From NCBI GenBank assembly GCA_902562525.1, contig CACETT010000008.1:1-37550 (forward strand): a DNA stretch of 37,550 nt, read 5' to 3'. A program made the position numbers and the translations under genes. The notes beneath the pieces were generated by a model. It was not told where the DNA came from and made no database searches. It saw only the letters and a list, made by a program, of their open reading frames with translations. Shown piece by piece: positions 1,496-9,964 of this stretch (its first letter is position 1; every line of letters starts with the position of its first letter). The DNA is from an uncultured Alphaproteobacteria bacterium. Its GTDB lineage: Bacteria; Pseudomonadota; Alphaproteobacteria; UBA7887.

Positions 1496-4141
1496 TCATG
1501 TGCCATCATCATAATTTAAAATCGGCCGTAAGATCTTCTCCGTCTCCGCTAAGTCAAGCCCCTTTCGTAAGGCATAACTCTGAACTTGGTCTTTCTCAAT
1601 TTTTCCAACTCCAAAGTATCTACTCTCAGGATGGCTAAAGTAAATGCCGCATACGGATGCTGCAGGCATTATAGCATCGTTTTCAGTAAGTCTTGTGCCA
1701 ACTTTATTTTGGGCATCCAAAATCGAGAAAAGAGTCCGTTTTTCTGTGTGATCAGGACAGGCCGGATAACCAGGCGCGGGCCTTATCCCCTGATACAGCT
1801 CATCTATCAACGATTTATTATCAAACTTCTCCTCCGGCGCATAACCCCAAAACTCTCTCCGAACCCTCTCGTGCATATGTTCCGCGAAAGCTTCAGCCAA
1901 CCTATCGGCAAGGGCTTTAACCAGAATCGCGCTGTATTCGTCATTTTCAGATTCAAATTCAGCAACTACACGCTCACAATTGTGGCCTGCCGTGACAACG
2001 AAACCTCCAATGTAATCTGGGACACCACTATCCAAAGGAGCAACAAAATCGGAAAGGGCATGGTTGGCCCGCAATCCTTCCCTCTTCATCTGCTGACGCA
2101 ATGTATGGAAGCGCGCTATCTCACGCTCCCTATCATTATCTGAAAATAAGGCTATATCATCCTCAACCGAATTAGCAGGCCAAAACCCAATAGCTGCTTT
2201 GGCCATAAGCCAATTACCTTCGGCGATTCTTTCTAACATCACCAAGGCATCTTGATATAGATTACGGGCTGCCTCCCCTACCACTTCATCCTCAAGGATC
2301 GCAGGAAACCGTCCTGCCAATTCCCATGCCTGGAAAAAAGGGGTCCAGTCAATGTACTCGCTAAGCGCTACTAGATCATACTGCTGGAAATATTCCGGCT
2401 CGGCAGAAGAGGGCTCGGGTGGAACATAGGAATCCCAATCAACGGACAGTTTATTCCTTCGCGCCTCAGCAAGTGAACACTTAGTTGCCCGCCTGCTAGA
2501 ACTCTTATGCTTTTTACGGATAATATCTTGTTGGCGACCAACTTCATCAATAAACCCCTGGCGTTCCTGATCGGAAATCAACTTGCTTACTACTCCAACT
2601 GCTTTAGAGGCATCAGTCACGTGGATAGTTGGACCATTATAAGTCGGGGCAATTTTAAGAGCCGTGTGCACCGAACTAGTGGTTGCTCCGCCAATCAACA
2701 AAGGCATGTCAATGGAAGCACGATCGAGCTCCCGGCCAACTGTTCGCATCTCATCCAAGCTTGGAGTTATAAGTCCCGATAGCCCAATTAGATCAACTTT
2801 CTCCTCTTGAGCAATTCTCAAAATATCCATCCAGGGAACCATCACCCCTAAATCAAGAACTTCATAGTTATTACATTGGAGAACTATACGAACAATATTC
2901 TTTCCGATATCGTGGACGTCTCCCTTCACGGTGGCTAATAATATCTTGCCCCCGTTGCGAGCGACAACCTTTCCCTTAGCCCTCTCTTCTTCCATATACG
3001 GGGTCAAATGAGCAACGGATTGCTTCATTACCCGTGCACTCTTAACCACTTGTGGAAGAAACATCTTGCCAGCTCCAAATAATTCGCCAACCTCCCGCAT
3101 TCCCTCCATCAAGTGCCCTTCGATAACATCCAATGGTCTAACCGAATTTTGGCGAGCCTCTTCCGTGTCTTCGATAATATATTCACTGATACCTTGAACC
3201 AGGGAGTGCTTGAGACGTGCCCCGACCTCCCCCTCACGCCATGACAGATCTTCCACTCGGCCTTGAATACTTTTGCCACTATGCTCATTAGCAATGGCCA
3301 ACAGACGTTCCGTCGCATCGGCACCCCGATTAAAAAAAACGTCTTCGATTCGATCTCGTAGCTCCGTTGCGATTTCGTTGTAGACCGGAAGGCGGCCTGC
3401 ATTAACGATACCCATGGTCATTCCCGCCTTAATCGCGTGATATAAAAACACCGCATGCATGGCAGCTCGGACAATCTCATTACCTCTGAAGGAAAACGAA
3501 ATATTTGATACCCCCCCTGAGATATGAACGAGCGGGAACGCCTTTTTTATTCTCCTAACAGCGTTGATAAAAGAAAGCGCATATTCGTTATGTTCCTCGA
3601 TTCCAGTAGCAACGGCAAATATGTTAGGATCAAAAATTATATCAGATGGGAAAAAGCCCACACGTTTCGTCAACAATTCATAACTACGAGCACATATTGA
3701 AAACTTCCTGTCTTCGCTATCTGCCTGACCCGCCTCATCAAAAGCCATCACAACGACTGCCGCACCGTACTTTCGGATTAATTCAGCCTGTTCCAGAAAA
3801 AGTGCCTCACCCTCCTTGAGGCTGATTGAGTTTGCTATGCTCTTACCCTGAACATTTTGCAGGCCCGTCTCTATAACCTGCCACTTCGAAGAATCAATCA
3901 TTAGGGGCACCCGACTAATCTCCGGCTCGGAGGCAATTAAACGTAAAAATCGCCGCATTTCTAACTCACTATCCAGCAAGCCTTCATCCATATTTATGTC
4001 AAGTATCTGTGCTCCATTCAAAACCTGCTGGCGAGCGACCTGCAATGCTCCTTCATAATCTTCATCAGTTATGAGTTTACGGAATTTAGCTGAGCCCGTC
4101 ACATTCGTTCGCTCGCCTATATTAACAAAGCCCGGGATCAT
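1496..4141 (-). CDS. metH: Methionine synthase, C-terminal part (folate, cobalamin and reactivation domains), separate gene
   Basis: This 881-residue protein carries three of the four modules of cobalamin-dependent methionine synthase. The methyl-tetrahydrofolate (pterin) domain opens with [14 protein letters not shown] at residues 7-20. The cobalamin cap and binding domains follow, with DVHDIG at 408-413 supplying the cobalt-ligand His410. The C-terminal S-adenosylmethionine reactivation domain has [12 protein letters not shown] and [12 protein letters not shown]. The start used is the ATG at 4141-4139, because it overlaps the stop of the upstream homocysteine-binding gene as ATGA and places the pterin domain at the N-terminus. 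An in-frame ATG at 4270 would add 43 residues that match nothing in the family. With the upstream 347 residues the total is 1228, essentially full-length MetH. Confidence 0.95.
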
Positions 4142-5181
4142 GGCTGAATACTGACGGCTTCTAGCCCGGAAATGGCGAGCACGGAGCCCCGCTCGGGCAA
4201 AGCCCGTGGGGATATTCCTTCCACCGAGGTAGCAATTGCTGCCACATGGGCGGGGGTGGTGCCGCAACAACCCCCTAAAATATTAACCAAACCCTCTTGC
4301 GCCCATTCATGTAAGAACTCCGCTGTTTGTTCAGGCGTTTCTTCATATTCACCAAACTCATTAGGAAAACCAGCGTTTGGATGAGCACTGACCAAACAAT
4401 CTGCTACAGATGATAATTCACCTACATATGGCCTCAACTGTTTTGCCCCCAAGGAGCAGTTTAATCCCACACTTAAAGGCCCACAATGACGCACCGAACA
4501 CCAAAACGCTTCCACCGTTTGGCCAGTTAAAGTCCGCCCAGACCGATCAGTAATAGTCCCCGAAATCATTATTGGAAGAGATGATTTCCTTTCCTCAAAC
4601 AATTCCGCAAATGCGAACAACGCTGCCTTTGCATTCAGCGTATCAAAAACTGTCTCCAATAAAAGCAGATCCACTCCGCCCTCTAAAAGTCCTTCTGTCG
4701 CCTCACGGTAACCAATCCGCAGCTCATCGAAATTTGTAGCCCGATGAGCCGGATCCGATACATCCGGTGAAATCGAGGCCGTTCTATTCGTCGGCCCTAC
4801 CGTGCCAGCTACAAACCTTGGCCGGGACTCTGAAGCAACAGAGTTCACTGCCTGTCTAGCAAGACACGCACCTTCAAAATTCAGCTCCTTAACGATACGC
4901 TCGAGCTTATAATCGGACATAGAAATACGGTTGGAGTTAAAAGTGTTGGTAGTTAGGATGTCAGCTCCCGCTTCAAGATAGGCGAGGTGAATTTCTTTGA
5001 TCAAATCCGGTTGGGTCAAATTGAGCAAATCGTTTGCTCCGAATAAATCAGCTGAGGAATTGGCAAACCTTTTTCCACGATAATCGACATCACCCAGCTG
5101 CTGCCTCTGGATCATGGTGCCCATGGCTCCATCCATTAATAGAATTCGGCTCTCTGCTGACCCCAGAATATTTCTTTTCAT
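4138..5181 (-). CDS. metH: Methionine synthase, homocysteine-binding N-terminal part, separate gene
   Basis: This 347-residue protein is the zinc homocysteine methyltransferase module of MetH. It should bind and activate homocysteine for methyl transfer from the cobalamin on the protein encoded next. The three zinc-ligand cysteines are in place: Cys242 in GLNCSLG, and Cys305 and Cys306 in GGCCGTTP. The N-terminus has [10 protein letters not shown], typical of the homocysteine barrel. The start ATG overlaps the metF stop as ATGA (5181-5178), and its own stop overlaps the start of the second MetH gene the same way (4141-4138), so the three genes are translationally coupled. Taken alone it could be read as a betaine- or S-methylmethionine-dependent enzyme, but the abutting MetH C-terminal gene makes a split MetH far more likely. 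Confidence 0.93.
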
Positions 5182-6083
5182 GAGCCTACGCCTACCAATG
5201 AGGGAGAAGAAGTGAACTTAAGACCGAGAGAATCCCATATTCCTAAAATTAGATCCGACCGATTCAAGGTATAAAAATGCAGTTCTTCCACCCCCTGGGA
5301 GATCAAACCTGAACACTGCTCACAAGCGATATCCAAAGCCACTTTACTGGCTTCACTAGACCCACTCGGCACACCCTCAAATTGTTCAGAGATGGCCTTA
5401 GGGATCACGGAACCACAGCTCGCACTAAACCGAGCAATTTGTTCAAAATTTGTGATAGGCAGAATCCCAGGTACAATGGGCACCGTAATACCGCAAGCTC
5501 GAACACGTTCGTAGAATCTAAAAAACTGATCATTATTATAAAAAAATTGGGTGATCAGACGAACCGCACCTGCGTCACATTTCCTCTTAAGATGTTCCAT
5601 GTCTGACTGCACCCCCTGGGATTCTGGATGACCCTCAGGGTACGCCGCAGCCGTAATCTCAAATTCAGCTACTTCCCTCAAACCTTCAATCAACTCAACT
5701 GAACCCCCATAACCTCCAGGATATGGCTTGAACTTGGTGGTTCTTTCTGGGGGATCTCCTCGCAGGGCGACAATATGGGTTACTCCGTCATGAAAATAAT
5801 TTTGGGCGATATCCCTAATTTCCGCACGAGAAGATCCCACGCAGGTCAGATGAGCTGCTGGCCTGACATTAGTTATACGTTTGATATCCTTTACTACCTG
5901 GTGCGTGCGATCACGGGTCGTACCTCCCGCGCCATACGTCACAGATACAAAGACGGGATCAAGCGGGAGCAAGGCTTGGAGAGTTTTCCACAATGAAGCT
6001 AACATCGCAGCAGTCTTCGGGGGGAAGAATTCAAGTGATACACCTATACGTGCAACAGGAGTGAGTCCCTGGTCTCTAGGCAT
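5178..6083 (-). CDS. metF: Methylenetetrahydrofolate reductase
   Basis: MetF reduces 5,10-methylene-THF to 5-methyl-THF, the methyl donor for the methionine synthase encoded directly downstream. The 301-residue length is typical. Recognisable segments are SLEFFPPKT at the N-terminus with the catalytic Glu, [24 protein letters not shown], the flavin-region [26 protein letters not shown], and IVPGILPI. The chosen ATG at 6083 follows the regulator's stop after the eight bases GATTGGAA, with AGGA of the TAGGA sequence as a ribosome-binding site. A longer reading from 6152 would overlap the regulator by about 60 bases and add residues unlike MetF. The metF stop overlaps the next start as ATGA. Confidence 0.95.
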
Positions 6084-6091
6084 TTCCAATC

Positions 6092-7069
6092 CTACCAAAA
6101 ACTGCGAGCATATTTTGTTGATAAAGGCATAGTGCCCAGCCGCCCAACCCATACAACAACCGTGAGTTCCCCGCCCTTTAGTGTGGCAAAATTTTCGAAC
6201 TCCAACTCCGCTGCTTCAAACCAAGTCGCCATCTCCCTTTCCTCAAAGCCAAGTCGCCGATGAGCATAATCTTTTCGAAGAAACTCCAGCTGATGAGAAG
6301 CAAAATCAACGACAACCAATTGCCCTCCAGGGCGCAGAACACGGGCTGCCTCCCTCAATACTCTTGCCGGCTCCTCAGCGTAATGAAGAACCATATGGAC
6401 AACAACCGCATCAAAGGAAGCCCTAGTAAACGGCACTTTATACATGTCGCCGAAGCGAGCATGGCAGTTGTTGGCTCGCGCATGCCGTAACTTGGTTCTG
6501 GCAAGGCCTAACATTCCACGAGAAGTATCGATCCCCACGCCTCTTTTTATATCATCCGCCATAAGTTCTAGAATTCGTCCTGTCCCAGTACCTATGTCTA
6601 ACAAGTCCGCAACGTCCCTGCCTGAAAGGCACTGTTTCAAAACAGACTCCACGTTCACCTCGTCAACGTGGAACCTCCTAACTTCATCCCACCGAGGAGC
6701 AAGCTCCGAGAAAAGGAGCTCGGCCTCAGATGCACGGTCACGCCTCAGAATCCTGAGGCGTTCCCTATCCGAAGCCAGTTGCTGATCACCTATTGGAAGA
6801 AGGTTAAGAATATTCTTCGCTATCCCCTGACTAGGGTCATCTGAACTGATCTTATAAAAGGCCCATGTGCCCTCTTGCCTCCGCTCTAAAAGATGGCAAT
6901 CGCACAATTGCCGAAGATGGTGGGACACACCGGACTGCGGCTGCCCAAGAATTTCTGTTAAATCCTTAACAGTAAGTTCTTCCTCTGCGCACAGAGCCAG
7001 CAACCTCATCCGGGTTGGCTCCGACACGGCACGAAATTTCTGCAACAAGGATTCCAAGATGCCCCCCAA
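6092..7069 (-). CDS. ArsR-family winged-helix regulator fused to a SAM-dependent methyltransferase domain
   Basis: Residues about 1-85 form an ArsR-type winged helix, with SEPTRMRLLALC and the recognition-helix region GQPQSGVSHHLRQL. After a linker, the rest is a class I methyltransferase-like domain with the SAM-binding motif LDIGTGTGRILEL, then GIDTSRGML, DAVVVHMVLHY and RVLRPGGQLVVVDF. Proteins of this fused architecture are commonly found beside metF in alphaproteobacteria, and a role in sensing SAM or S-adenosylhomocysteine is plausible. It is first in a four-gene operon, with metF starting eight bases after its stop, and a perfect palindrome sits 25 bases upstream. Start is uncertain: the frame opens with TTG at 7069 without a clear ribosome-binding site, no in-frame ATG exists upstream before a stop, and nearby TTG codons (7057, 7048) are alternatives. 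Confidence 0.88.
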   Translation of the reverse strand: MGGILESLLQKFRAVSEPTRMRLLALCAEEELTVKDLTEILGQPQSGVSHHLRQLCDCHLLERRQEGTWAFYKISSDDPSQGIAKNILNLLPIGDQQLASDRERLRILRRDRASEAELLFSELAPRWDEVRRFHVDEVNVESVLKQCLSGRDVADLLDIGTGTGRILELMADDIKRGVGIDTSRGMLGLARTKLRHARANNCHARFGDMYKVPFTRASFDAVVVHMVLHYAEEPARVLREAARVLRPGGQLVVVDFASHQLEFLRKDYAHRRLGFEEREMATWFEAAELEFENFATLKGGELTVVVWVGRLGTMPLSTKYARSFW

Positions 7070-7093
7070 CCATTAAGTGTGGTTTATCGGTCC

Positions 7094-7119
7094 AATAGAT
7101 CAATATACATTGATCTATT
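7094..7119. promoter_or_regulatory. Perfect 11-4-11 palindrome, likely operator of the ArsR-metF-metH operon
   Basis: Arms AATAGATCAAT (7094-7104) and ATTGATCTATT (7109-7119) are exact reverse complements around the spacer ATAC. The inner ATCAAT/ATTGAT core resembles operators of ArsR-family repressors. The site lies 25 bases before the regulator's TTG start. On the minus strand a -10-like TATATT falls across the palindrome spacer, so binding there would block transcription. Autoregulation is inferred from position and symmetry. Confidence 0.75.
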
Positions 7120-7523
7120 AATTTTTAACAGAGTCTATTGTGCCAATTTGTGCCTATATTCGTCCCTAAACCGCCTAGACTAAACCAGTCTAAGAGCAAA
7201 CAAGCTTAAAAGAGCGCACATTCAAGGGCTGCCTTGACAGGGAGAAAACTCATAAGCATTGGGGACTGAGGTATTTTTGCAACAAATCAAGTGGGACTCA
7301 TAGTATTTTGCTAGGTCAAGCTAGTGTTTTTTGTCCGATTGTGGTACCGAACTTTGAAGCTTTGTAGCTGACGACCTGCAGTAGCTAAACAATGCTCAGT
7401 TAGCACTGGAAGATTCTGGGTATGGCCTATCACAGTGGCTAAATTTGCTCTTGTCGCTGGGCCAAAGCGTTTTGTAGGATGGGGGAGTATGACGTGTCAG
7501 GCAGTGGAGCATTGTTGGGGATT
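7120..7523. other. Intergenic stretch of about 400 bases between the divergent metF and mla operons
   Basis: I find no credible gene here. It must hold the promoter of mlaA. A consensus -35 hexamer TTGACA is at 7234-7239, but the matching -10 position reads only CATTGG, so I do not call a promoter. A small inverted repeat TAGACT-AAACC-AGTCTA lies at 7176-7192. Nothing resembles a known riboswitch. Confidence 0.5.
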
Positions 7524-8339
7524 ATGTTGTTGAGCCGTTCAAGTATGTTCAAGTTGGTAGCCCGTCCATTACTATTAGGTATTCTTGTGGCGGGACTGAG
7601 CGGGTGCGCCACTCCACCCAAGGATCCGGAGGCCTATAGTGAGTGGAAGGCAATTAATGATCCACTAGAACCAATGAACCGTGGCGTATTCGAGGTCAAC
7701 ATGTTTCTCGATGGAATTATCCTGAAACCTGTTGCTCAAGGCTATCGGTGGATTTTGCCAAACTTTCTTCGGTCCGGAGTAAAGAATGCTCTCGATAATC
7801 TAGGGGAGCCGCTTAATGCTGCGAACTCTCTCCTGCAAGGGGATTTCAGCAGAGCAAGCACAGCCTTAGGCCGATTACTCATAAACACCACTGTCGGCCT
7901 GGCGGGCTTGATTGATGTAGCAGAAACGATTGGACTGCGCCCAGTCCAGGAAGACTTTGGCCAAACCCTGGCTGTGTGGGGCGTAGAGAACACGCCCTAC
8001 CTAGTACTGCCCCTGATCGGGCCATCCTCAATCAGGGACGGCATAGGAAAAGGAATAGAGTTTTTCGTAGACCCAACGACCATTGCCCTGGAAAATTCTG
8101 ATCTTGAGTGGGTCAACTGGACCCTGACAGCGGTTGAAATTATTGAAAGGCGGTCCCGACACATTGAAACCCTTGATGATATCGAGCGTAACTCAGTGGA
8201 CTTTTACGCGGCAGTTCGAAGCTTGTATCGGCAACGGAGAGATGACCTGATCCATAATGGCAACGCCCCTGAACCTGATCCATTTTACGGAAATTCGCCG
8301 GACTTGCCGGACGACAGCGAACTATCATCTGTGAATTGA
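7524..8339 (+). CDS. mlaA: MlaA/VacJ outer-membrane lipoprotein
   Basis: MlaA sits in the outer membrane and removes misplaced phospholipids from the outer leaflet, handing them to periplasmic MlaC. The protein has a lipoprotein signal ending in the lipobox LSGC, then the family's opening NDPLEPMNRGVFEVN, with LGRLLINTTVGLAGLIDVA and FGQTLAVWGV followed by YLVLPLIGPSS and later FVDP. Length is about 271 residues. Starts at 7479, 7524 and 7545 are all possible. I prefer the ATG at 7524 because GGGGA stands just upstream and the signal peptide is then of normal size. The following mlaC begins four bases after the stop, so the two proteins of the same pathway are coupled. Confidence 0.92.
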   Translation: MLLSRSSMFKLVARPLLLGILVAGLSGCATPPKDPEAYSEWKAINDPLEPMNRGVFEVNMFLDGIILKPVAQGYRWILPNFLRSGVKNALDNLGEPLNAANSLLQGDFSRASTALGRLLINTTVGLAGLIDVAETIGLRPVQEDFGQTLAVWGVENTPYLVLPLIGPSSIRDGIGKGIEFFVDPTTIALENSDLEWVNWTLTAVEIIERRSRHIETLDDIERNSVDFYAAVRSLYRQRRDDLIHNGNAPEPDPFYGNSPDLPDDSELSSVN

Positions 8340-8343
8340 ATTG

Positions 8344-8967
8344 ATGTTGCGCCGCCGCTTCTGTTTGCTTAGCTTTATCGGGTTTCCTTGCTTGCTAGCA
8401 TCTGGAAGCATGGAGGCCATTGCTTCTCCAGAAACCGAACAAGCTAAATTTGTAAACACGCTTATCGATAAAGCAATTAAAATACTGAAACTACCAACAG
8501 AAAACCGCTCCGAGCGGGAAGCTGGATTCAGGAACTTGGTTCGGCATGATTTTGATATGCCCACTATAGTGAGATTAGTACTGGGCAGACATTGGCGTAC
8601 AGCAACAACTGGCCAGAAAACAAGATTCTCCAATGCGCTTCTAACGCATCTCATCAGCGTGTATTCAGAGGGACTAGGCATGTACGATGGCCAGATATTG
8701 GAAATAGAAAAATCTACTCCGCTCACCGAAAAAGACACTGTAGTATTTACCCACATATCTCGGGAGGGGGCCCTGCCCCTGCGTTTGGATTGGCGAGTTC
8801 GCCAGACCAGCAGGGGGCTTAAGATAATTGACATAGCGACCGAAGGAGTAAGCATGGTTACTACAAAACGGTCAGAGTTTACCTCGCTGATTGCGCGCGA
8901 GGGGGTAGAAGCCCTTATAGCCCGTCTCGAAGGCATGAATGCCAAGACCGCAGAAGGCAGTTCGTAA
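8344..8967 (+). CDS. mlaC: MlaC/Ttg2D-type periplasmic phospholipid-binding protein
   Basis: This 207-residue protein belongs to the MlaC (toluene tolerance Ttg2/Tgt2) family, which ferries phospholipid between MlaA in the outer membrane and the inner-membrane MCE transporter. It starts with a charged and hydrophobic signal peptide (MLRRRFCLLSFIGFPCLL), then KFVNTLIDKAIKIL, FRNLVRHDFDMPTIVRLVLGRHWRT and LDWRVRQTSRGLKIIDIATEGVSMV, the typical MlaC order. The ATG at 8344 is preferred over the adjacent TTG at 8341. It directly follows mlaA. The transporter genes (MlaE, MlaF, MlaD types) are not in this window. Confidence 0.92.
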   Translation: MLRRRFCLLSFIGFPCLLASGSMEAIASPETEQAKFVNTLIDKAIKILKLPTENRSEREAGFRNLVRHDFDMPTIVRLVLGRHWRTATTGQKTRFSNALLTHLISVYSEGLGMYDGQILEIEKSTPLTEKDTVVFTHISREGALPLRLDWRVRQTSRGLKIIDIATEGVSMVTTKRSEFTSLIAREGVEALIARLEGMNAKTAEGSS

Positions 8968-8995
8968 TGGCAGCGGATTTTCTCGGAAACAACTC

Positions 8996-9964
8996 ATGGC
9001 GTGGCCAAGACGAGAGGCTGCATTTCCCCTCAATATGATGAACACGGACCTCCGGCTTGCACTTACTGAATGGCAAACCTGGCTTAGGACGGAGCGCCGA
9101 TTGGCGAAAAATACCCTTTCTTCCTATCATCGTGATGCTCAACGATTTCTAATCTTTCTAGCTTCCCACAAAGGATCGGCAATATGCCTGGATCAGCTAG
9201 TATCCCTCCACATCCGCGATTTTAGAGCTTGGTTAACGCAACTCCACAACGAGGGGCTCAGCCCACGCTCACGATCACGGGCGTTGGCTTCCATTCGGAG
9301 CCTTTTTCACTTTCTTGACAAAGAAAAATATGGCCAGAATGCTGCCATATCAGCCATTAGAAGGCCCCAAATGGATAAGCGTCTGCCCCACCCCACCCAG
9401 TTGGAATTAATAGAACAGGTCATCCATGCTGCAGCCTCAAAAAGGCGCGGTCGAGCGCAATGGGTAGGACTACGAGACCAAGCGCTGTTGACCCTACTAT
9501 ATGGAGCTGGGCTCAGAATAGGCGAAGCACTGGATCTAAGCGCCAACGCTTTTGATGGTGATCCGGAGACATTAATAATTACCGGTAAGGGAAGTCGTCA
9601 ACGGATGATCCCTATCCTTCCAGTTATAAGAGAACGGGTTGCCAAATATAAGGATCTGTGTCCCTATGAATTTAACCCTGAGGGGGCCTTATTTCTTGGG
9701 CAAAGAGGAAAACGACTTAACCCTGGAGTTGTCCAAAAACTAGTCAGGAGTCTGCGACAGGAACTGCACATAGGAGACGACCTCACTCCTCACGGACTTC
9801 GGCATAGCTTTGCAACGCACCTCCTATCAAACGGGGGAAATTTACGGATTATTCAAGAATTACTAGGCCATTCTAGTCTTTCTACAACTCAACAGTACAC
9901 GACTGTGGCCGACAGAGAACTCCGTGGGGTTTTTCGGGACACCCACCCGCGTGCAAAGGTCTGA
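8996..9964 (+). CDS. xerC: Tyrosine recombinase XerC
   Basis: XerC resolves chromosome dimers at dif with XerD during division. The N-terminal SAM-like DNA-binding domain shows RRLAKNTLSSYHRDAQRFLIFL. The catalytic domain carries the recombinase residues: Arg in LLYGAGLRIGEAL, Lys in TGKGSRQR, His and Arg in HGLRHSFATHLL, His in LLGHSSLSTTQ, and Tyr in QYTTV. Length of about 322 residues fits a chromosomal Xer rather than a phage integrase, and there is no neighbouring excisionase or att repeat. Starts at 8996 or 9035 are both possible, and neither has a strong ribosome-binding site. XerC rather than XerD is judged from overall resemblance and is less certain. Confidence 0.85.
   Translation: MAWPRREAAFPLNMMNTDLRLALTEWQTWLRTERRLAKNTLSSYHRDAQRFLIFLASHKGSAICLDQLVSLHIRDFRAWLTQLHNEGLSPRSRSRALASIRSLFHFLDKEKYGQNAAISAIRRPQMDKRLPHPTQLELIEQVIHAAASKRRGRAQWVGLRDQALLTLLYGAGLRIGEALDLSANAFDGDPETLIITGKGSRQRMIPILPVIRERVAKYKDLCPYEFNPEGALFLGQRGKRLNPGVVQKLVRSLRQELHIGDDLTPHGLRHSFATHLLSNGGNLRIIQELLGHSSLSTTQQYTTVADRELRGVFRDTHPRAKV

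Follow-up and report, generated by a model that had tools for sequence, protein, structure and literature searches.

The window, a stretch of 37,550 bp from an uncultured alphaproteobacterium (contig CACETT010000008.1, positions 1 to 37,550), carries a sahR gene at the head of a metF-metH operon, the position that the first-pass annotation had given for the fusion gene, with metF and both parts of metH downstream on the same strand (Table 1). MetH is split across two ORFs. Provided that the predicted starts are correct, metF overlaps metH by 4 bases, and the two metH parts overlap by 4 bases as well. Based on the operon position and the operator described below, metF and metH are predicted to be under SahR control. 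A riboswitch leader was rejected, the window having no Rfam match at gathering score.

Table 1. Coordinates of the sahR-metF-metH operon and of the associated features in the window
Feature	Position	Strand	Remarks
metH second part: pterin-binding, B12-binding and activation domains	1496..4141	-	PF00809, PF02607, PF02310, PF02965; TIGR02082 positions 342-1182; predicted start ATG 4141, ORF open to 4270
metH first part: homocysteine S-methyltransferase domain, 347 aa	4138..5181	-	PF02574; TIGR02082 positions 2-338
metF, methylenetetrahydrofolate reductase	5178..6083	-	PF02219, TIGR00676; predicted start ATG 6083, ORF open to 6152
sahR, ArsR-type winged helix and class I SAM-dependent methyltransferase domain	6092..7057	-	321 aa from TTG 7057; ORF open to TTG 7069
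SAM-binding motif I DIGTGTG, residues 158-164	6578..6598	-	D158, G160, G162 and G164 conserved in at least 92% of 197 aligned rows
Recognition helix QSGVSHHLRQLCD	6899..6937	-	Residues 45-57 in 325-aa numbering, 41-53 of the 321-aa AlphaFold2 model; alignment
Operator core, 20 bp AGATCAATATACATTGATCT, ATC-N10-GAT	7097..7116	.	Inside the 26-base palindrome 7094-7119

In the same-genus relative G427 (locus L212, 6573-6848), only a remnant of metF is found, in which the stretch matching residues 1-25 directly adjoins, in frame, the one matching residues 258-324. About 230 metF codons are absent between sahR and metH, reflecting either a true deletion or a flaw in the assembly (listed completeness 99%, contamination 5%). 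At L012, L013, L018-L021, L023-L028, L030 and L032-L038, the genes after sahR are only about 31-39% identical to the two MetH parts (best local segments), which suggests a different homocysteine methyltransferase and corrinoid arrangement. Beyond the sahR-mlaA intergenic region, the window contains mlaA and mlaC and, after them, a phage-integrase-type tyrosine recombinase (7479-9964; Pfam), perhaps XerC or XerD. A block of about 45 bases in this intergenic region (7311-7355) is 95-100% identical in G427, compared with 70% over the aligned intergenic region, and might perhaps represent the mlaA promoter.

The description of the sahR product as an ArsR-methyltransferase fusion is borne out by its domain matches, with HTH_5 (ArsR) at residues 18-61 (39.4 bits, cutoff 22) and Methyltransf_11 at residues 157-253 in Pfam, and NF033788 (ArsR/SmtB) at residues 10-78 (78 bits, cutoff 55) in NCBIfam. 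Because an in-frame TGA lies 4 codons upstream of the homologous TTG in the same-genus relative (read by eye), translation probably starts at TTG 7057 rather than at 7069, giving a protein of 321 aa. The AlphaFold2 model of this protein (21 sequences) has a mean pLDDT of 87.3 and a pTM of 0.81, and a 36-residue helix precedes the second domain. In structural superpositions, which mostly span residues 112-309, the methyltransferase domain matches many class I enzymes (best VIA-align Z 22.8, 177 residues, 1.9 A). The long Foldseek matches include Rv2258c and winged-helix O-methyltransferases, with a TM of 0.4-0.5 and an rmsd of 16-21 A. No PDB chain named SahR is present among the matches listed, i.e., the best 60 of 78 in the sequence search and 50 rows in each fold search.

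Homologues from 199 loci were aligned, of which 197 were kept (L039 and L040 were incomplete). H229, H259, H270, G274 and F275 are kept in at least 91% of the 197 rows, a set that spans the alphaproteobacterial homologues and a second, non-alphaproteobacterial group (hereafter the QSG group, after its recognition helix). Together with the intact SAM motif, this suggests a conserved pocket. The sequence C56-D-C58-H59 closes the recognition helix (window 6893-6904), with positions 58-59 being Ala-Gly in most rows and Cys-His in the window and G427; it is a possible metal or redox site.

Upstream of sahR, the perfect 11-4-11 palindrome noticed by the first-pass annotation was recovered at 7094-7119 (AATAGATCAAT-ATAC-ATTGATCTATT). 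It is the sole perfect inverted repeat in the window with arms of at least 11 bases and a spacer of 0-12. Dinucleotide shuffling produced arms of such length twice in 1000 shuffles of 7070-7478 and once in 2000 shuffles of 7070-7169, and a chance palindrome was rejected on these grounds. Two details needed revision. With the probable start at TTG 7057, the distance to the gene would be 36 bases and not the 25 given before, and the palindrome had been said to span a -10-like element: TATATT is present inside it on the minus strand, yet a sigma-70 scan of 6950-7500 gave no promoter-like site, which leaves the -10 element unsupported. As for its extent, the proposed 26-base operator is indeed perfect over its 11-base arms, but 17 of the 20 core bases and just 1 of the 3 outermost base pairs (by eye) are kept in the same-genus relative; therefore, an operator of about 20 bp fits better. 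This core (minus-strand reading AGATCAATGTATATTGATCT) is a candidate SahR site, being a palindrome of about 20 bp with the ATC-10 nt-GAT consensus. Other exact ATCAAT-N4-ATTGAT matches occur in the two genomes of the genus. The copy on G427 contig 27 lies inside a coding ORF, the copy on G000 contig 7 overlaps the start of one, and the copies on G000 contig 43 and G427 contig 27 have the same core.

SahR, which Novichkov reportedly described in 2014, is said to be an SAH-responsive regulator of the ArsR family. According to the available part of PMC4239095, SahR responds to SAH and regulates SAM-cycle genes, with a core of ahcY, metH, metF, metK and sahR. The same part gives its site as a 20-bp palindrome, with ATC-10 nt-GAT common to the gammaproteobacterial SahR and SamR motifs. 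The window resembles this system in the ArsR helix and methyltransferase domain of the homologues examined, the ATC-N10-GAT palindrome, the SAM-cycle targets and self-regulation. SamR of Xanthomonadales is presented there as a distant SahR homologue with a 24-bp palindrome; its predicted regulon is wider than that of the window SahR.

The first-pass annotation assumed that the SAH regulators known from the ArsR family have no methyltransferase domain, so that the fusion would be a new sensing design. Neither assumption survived the domain surveys. A match at an E of 1e-15 or better was found in 119 of 240 alphaproteobacterial genomes, a label which rests on class kinship and named records, and the best match spans both domains in 118 of them, the remaining one being cut by a contig end. 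In a sample of the phylum, 53 of 200 genomes gave a match at an E of 1e-20 or better. Eighteen of these lie outside the class, and their matches cover query residues 13-283 or more in one search, a second search giving a shorter first segment for L108. Fourteen of the 18 loci are located directly before metK on the same strand (6 of them also with ahcY and metF), a gene neighbourhood already published for SahR, and belong to the QSG group, which is presumably gammaproteobacterial. The other four (L106-L109), which are SamR-like, have a MetH-N homologue as the next gene and are 33-34% identical to the window protein. Both domains were detected in all three of the 18 homologues scanned with Pfam, namely the metK-linked L114 and L118 and the SamR-like L106.

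Published records point in the same direction. E. aridi sahR is given with the figure 1023 (in the part of PMC8877191 available), presumably its length in bp and enough for both domains, and a fusion has also been published for Brevundimonas (PMC10190100). The accessible text of PMC7950407 names P. aeruginosa PA0547 as the SahR orthologue. Since SahR-like homologues already carry the fused domain, it is the usual form of SahR and not a new sensor design. Orthology to SahR, with the same domain plan, is drawn via the metK-linked homologues and the nesting of the window protein in the alphaproteobacterial clade; tree placement and a mean identity of 32-33% by domain place it outside SamR. Among 96 alphaproteobacterial loci with enough DNA, some of them near duplicates, metF directly follows sahR in 71 (including the same-genus relative with its metF remnant only) and a MetH-N homologue does so in 21 more.

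Canonical ArsM enzymes use several conserved cysteines for As(III). The alignment does not show such a set in the window protein, whose methyltransferase domain contains two cysteines. Partial conservation is confined to C202, which is shared by 103 of 179 alphaproteobacterial rows and by none of the 14 QSG-group rows, and no cysteine follows it. Nor does a Pfam scan of 17 window proteins reveal an arsenic gene. This bears on the idea that the domain is enzymatically active, e.g., as an arsenite methyltransferase (ArsRM), with regulation as a side role. In its favour stands Brevundimonas sp. M20, where, according to the available part of PMC10190100, an ArsR/methyltransferase fusion named ArsRM heads a metRFHH operon, was gel-shifted on the palindrome of its own promoter, and is claimed to methylate arsenite, with C134, Q224 and Y228 being named. 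Like the window SahR, this fusion heads an operon with metF, a homocysteine methyltransferase gene and metH, and has a palindrome upstream of its start codon; that palindrome (CTTTATATAAAG), unlike that of the window, resembles the usual alphaproteobacterial type. An active enzyme would also agree with the intact SAM motif, the conservation of H229, H259 and H270, and the best long Foldseek matches, which are wHTH-methyltransferase proteins and enzymes. However, as winged-helix small-molecule methyltransferases are among these matches, the fold alone cannot tell a regulator from an enzyme. The cysteine pattern gives no support for arsenite methylation, and an enzymatic main role seems improbable to us, although catalysis of some other kind is conceivable. 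The name SahR does not occur in the available text of PMC10190100, and as far as the accessible parts of PMC10190100 and PMC4239095 go, the two literatures appear to describe one protein family. The methyltransferase domain is likely a SAM/SAH sensor, and the fusion probably acts at the palindrome as the repressor of the metF-metH operon that it heads.

What stands out here is an apparent paired change of recognition helix and operator inside one alphaproteobacterial genus. Differences in SahR motifs between large groups have been published (PMC4239095 and PMC5343134, in the parts available); no account of a paired change within one alphaproteobacterial genus was found in a literature search covering few subscription journals. 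In most alphaproteobacterial rows, the helix has P46, R47 and R50, compared with S46, G47 and H50 in the window. The usual alphaproteobacterial pairing is a helix QPRxSRHL with a site of the type ACATAAA-N6-TTTATGT, located at about the same place as the operator of the window. The window and its one same-genus relative (G427; protein 90% identical, operator ATATCAATATATATTGATTT) combine QSGxSHHL with ATCAA-N6-TTGAT, and the QSG group combines QSGxSHHL with sites resembling ATATCAA-N6-TTGATAT.

This pairing was surveyed over 188 non-redundant loci, obtained by collapsing rows that agree in their first 150 residues and excluding L028, which has no upstream DNA. The site pattern, written once both site types were known, accepted either A or C at the key base, and the threshold was set at the 99th percentile of simple shuffles. 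A site was called upstream of sahR in 168 loci. With Arg at position 47 or 50 (171 loci), 149 sites are ATAA/TTAT, 2 are mixed, 20 loci have no called site and none has ATCA. With neither Arg47 nor Arg50, all 16 loci have ATCA/TGAT (helices 14 QSGxSH, 1 QPSxSH and 1 QPAxSH), although the QSG-ATCAA association amounts to at most two independent events, i.e., the split of the two large groups and the window genus with its 2 genomes, and stands as a good hypothesis short of proof. In the remaining row (L195), the helix is unreadable and the site is ATAA. Where only R50 is changed, L004, L008 and L208 keep ATAA, and L016 and L031, both in the sister genus, have the mixed sites. Where residue 47 is changed and R50 kept (8 loci), the two called sites are both ATAA (L068 and L138) and six loci have no called site, against 10 without one among 154 QPRxSR loci. 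Under this SahR-type pattern, none of the four SamR-like loci (QPRxST) has a called site.

A possible reading is a SahR code in which either Arg47 or Arg50 is enough to hold ATAAA and loss of both leads to ATCAA. The window genus would then have changed stepwise, losing R50 first and acquiring P46S and R47G together with the new operator, and would have converged on the distant group after ahcY left the regulon. This is put forward tentatively, at somewhat less than an even chance. Because six of the eight loci with R47 changed and R50 kept and all four SamR-like loci lack a called site, the data fall short of establishing a simple two-residue code; sites that go with other helix changes may be invisible to the pattern scan.

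A tree was built with IQ-TREE from 66 of the 197 rows, a partly random draw in which the program flagged long branches. The window and G427 are joined at 100/100, inside their own family at 100/95 and within an alphaproteobacterial clade at 99/98, separate from the QSG group. The sister genus is joined to the window genus at 100/99 and has a half-changed helix (QPRVSHHL or QPRVSQHL) with old or degenerate sites. Outside the helix, the N-terminal domain shares on average 64% identity with the sister genus, 45% with other alphaproteobacteria and 24% with the QSG group. These identities argue for substitution and not domain replacement, and a domain swap was rejected. Thus, although helix and site type equal those of the non-alphaproteobacterial group, a gain of the DNA-binding domain from a non-alphaproteobacterial SahR by recombination is extremely improbable. 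Judged by tree and identity, the window protein is alphaproteobacterial. The simplest order of events would be that R50 was lost first, followed by P46S and R47G with an A-to-C change in both half-sites.

Another possibility might be that the match between helix and operator is a coincidence, the operator having drifted and the helix residues not setting specificity. The case concerns one genus with two genomes, and sites are lost or altered elsewhere (20 of 188 without a called site and 2 mixed), including the six of eight loci with residue 47 changed and R50 kept. In the Brevundimonas ArsRM, in silico docking places the DNA contacts at R20, E42 and residues 96-104, i.e., elsewhere than the recognition helix (PMC10190100, available part). 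In contrast, the new half-site is present in both arms in both genomes of the genus, the changed residues lie inside the recognition helix of the AlphaFold2 model, and the same pairing exists in a separate non-alphaproteobacterial clade. In addition, base-specific contacts of NolR, also of the ArsR family, come mostly from the helix corresponding to the changed one (PMC8960804, available part). Coincidence is therefore considered rather unlikely, and a joint change of helix and operator is preferred.

The first-pass annotation suggested looking for the palindrome in relatives upstream of metF, ahcY and metK, and the outcome is mixed. A site does recur upstream of sahR; for ahcY, this was found outside the family of the window and not within it. 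Thirty genomes were surveyed for ahcY (G368 and G286 without an ORF, G428 incomplete, G056 with a doubtful start). Outside the family, 19 alphaproteobacterial genomes were readable, including G101, which is not among the sahR carriers; 10 of them have an ACATAAA-type site before ahcY, and the other 9 have no called site. Within the family, a clear site was found in 0 of 8 readable genomes. The borderline G425, which scores exactly at the threshold (24; the equivalent in G426 scores 21), was counted as having no clear site. For metK, the two genomes of the window genus gave no convincing site, with a best match of 8/10 fixed bases and 3/8 pairs (judged by this best match alone). Sites at ahcY and metK are frequent but neither universal nor defining in the published SahR core. 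Compared with SahR as presented in the available part of PMC4239095, the window genus thus differs in having no ahcY or metK site found and a non-alphaproteobacterial-type helix and operator with an alphaproteobacterial protein. As ahcY has no clear site in the family, the regulon may have shrunk before the helix/operator switch; once few operators remained, the repressor and its site could have drifted in step.

The same result bears on the ligand. It might be that SAM rather than SAH is sensed, in an end-product switch as proposed for SamR, which is suggested to respond to SAM (PMC4239095, available part). The SAM motif is intact, and the lack of a clear ahcY site in the family is similar to an argument made for SamR. 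However, both the tree and the identities place the protein nearer to alphaproteobacterial SahR than to the SamR-like loci, and metK has no site in the window genus, whereas SamR is predicted to regulate it (same source). SAM as the signal is therefore viewed as a fairly unlikely option.

Taken together, it is quite probable that the gene is SahR in its usual fused form, acting as a dimer that represses sahR-metF-metH at the palindrome and is released by SAH (or SAM), with helix and operator having changed together in this genus, probably after the regulon shrank towards sahR-metF-metH. In this proposal, the SahR dimer would bind the palindrome upstream of sahR and block the operon. By analogy with the published Desulfovibrio SahR, SAH (or SAM) filling the methyltransferase-fold domain would make the dimer leave the DNA, so that homocysteine remethylation would rise as SAH accumulates. 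In the window genus, QPRxSRHL with ACATAAA-N6-TTTATGT would have become QSGxSHHL with ATCAA-N6-TTGAT, recreating the non-alphaproteobacterial pairing, and this switch probably came after the regulon had narrowed towards the operon.

For the SahR family, the idea of the fused methyltransferase domain as a new SAH-sensor design is hereby corrected, as the SahR homologues examined have it. In the genus, a repressor and its operator would have changed in concert; this makes a compact natural example for which intermediate sequences are available, and regulon shrinkage before a change of specificity becomes directly testable.
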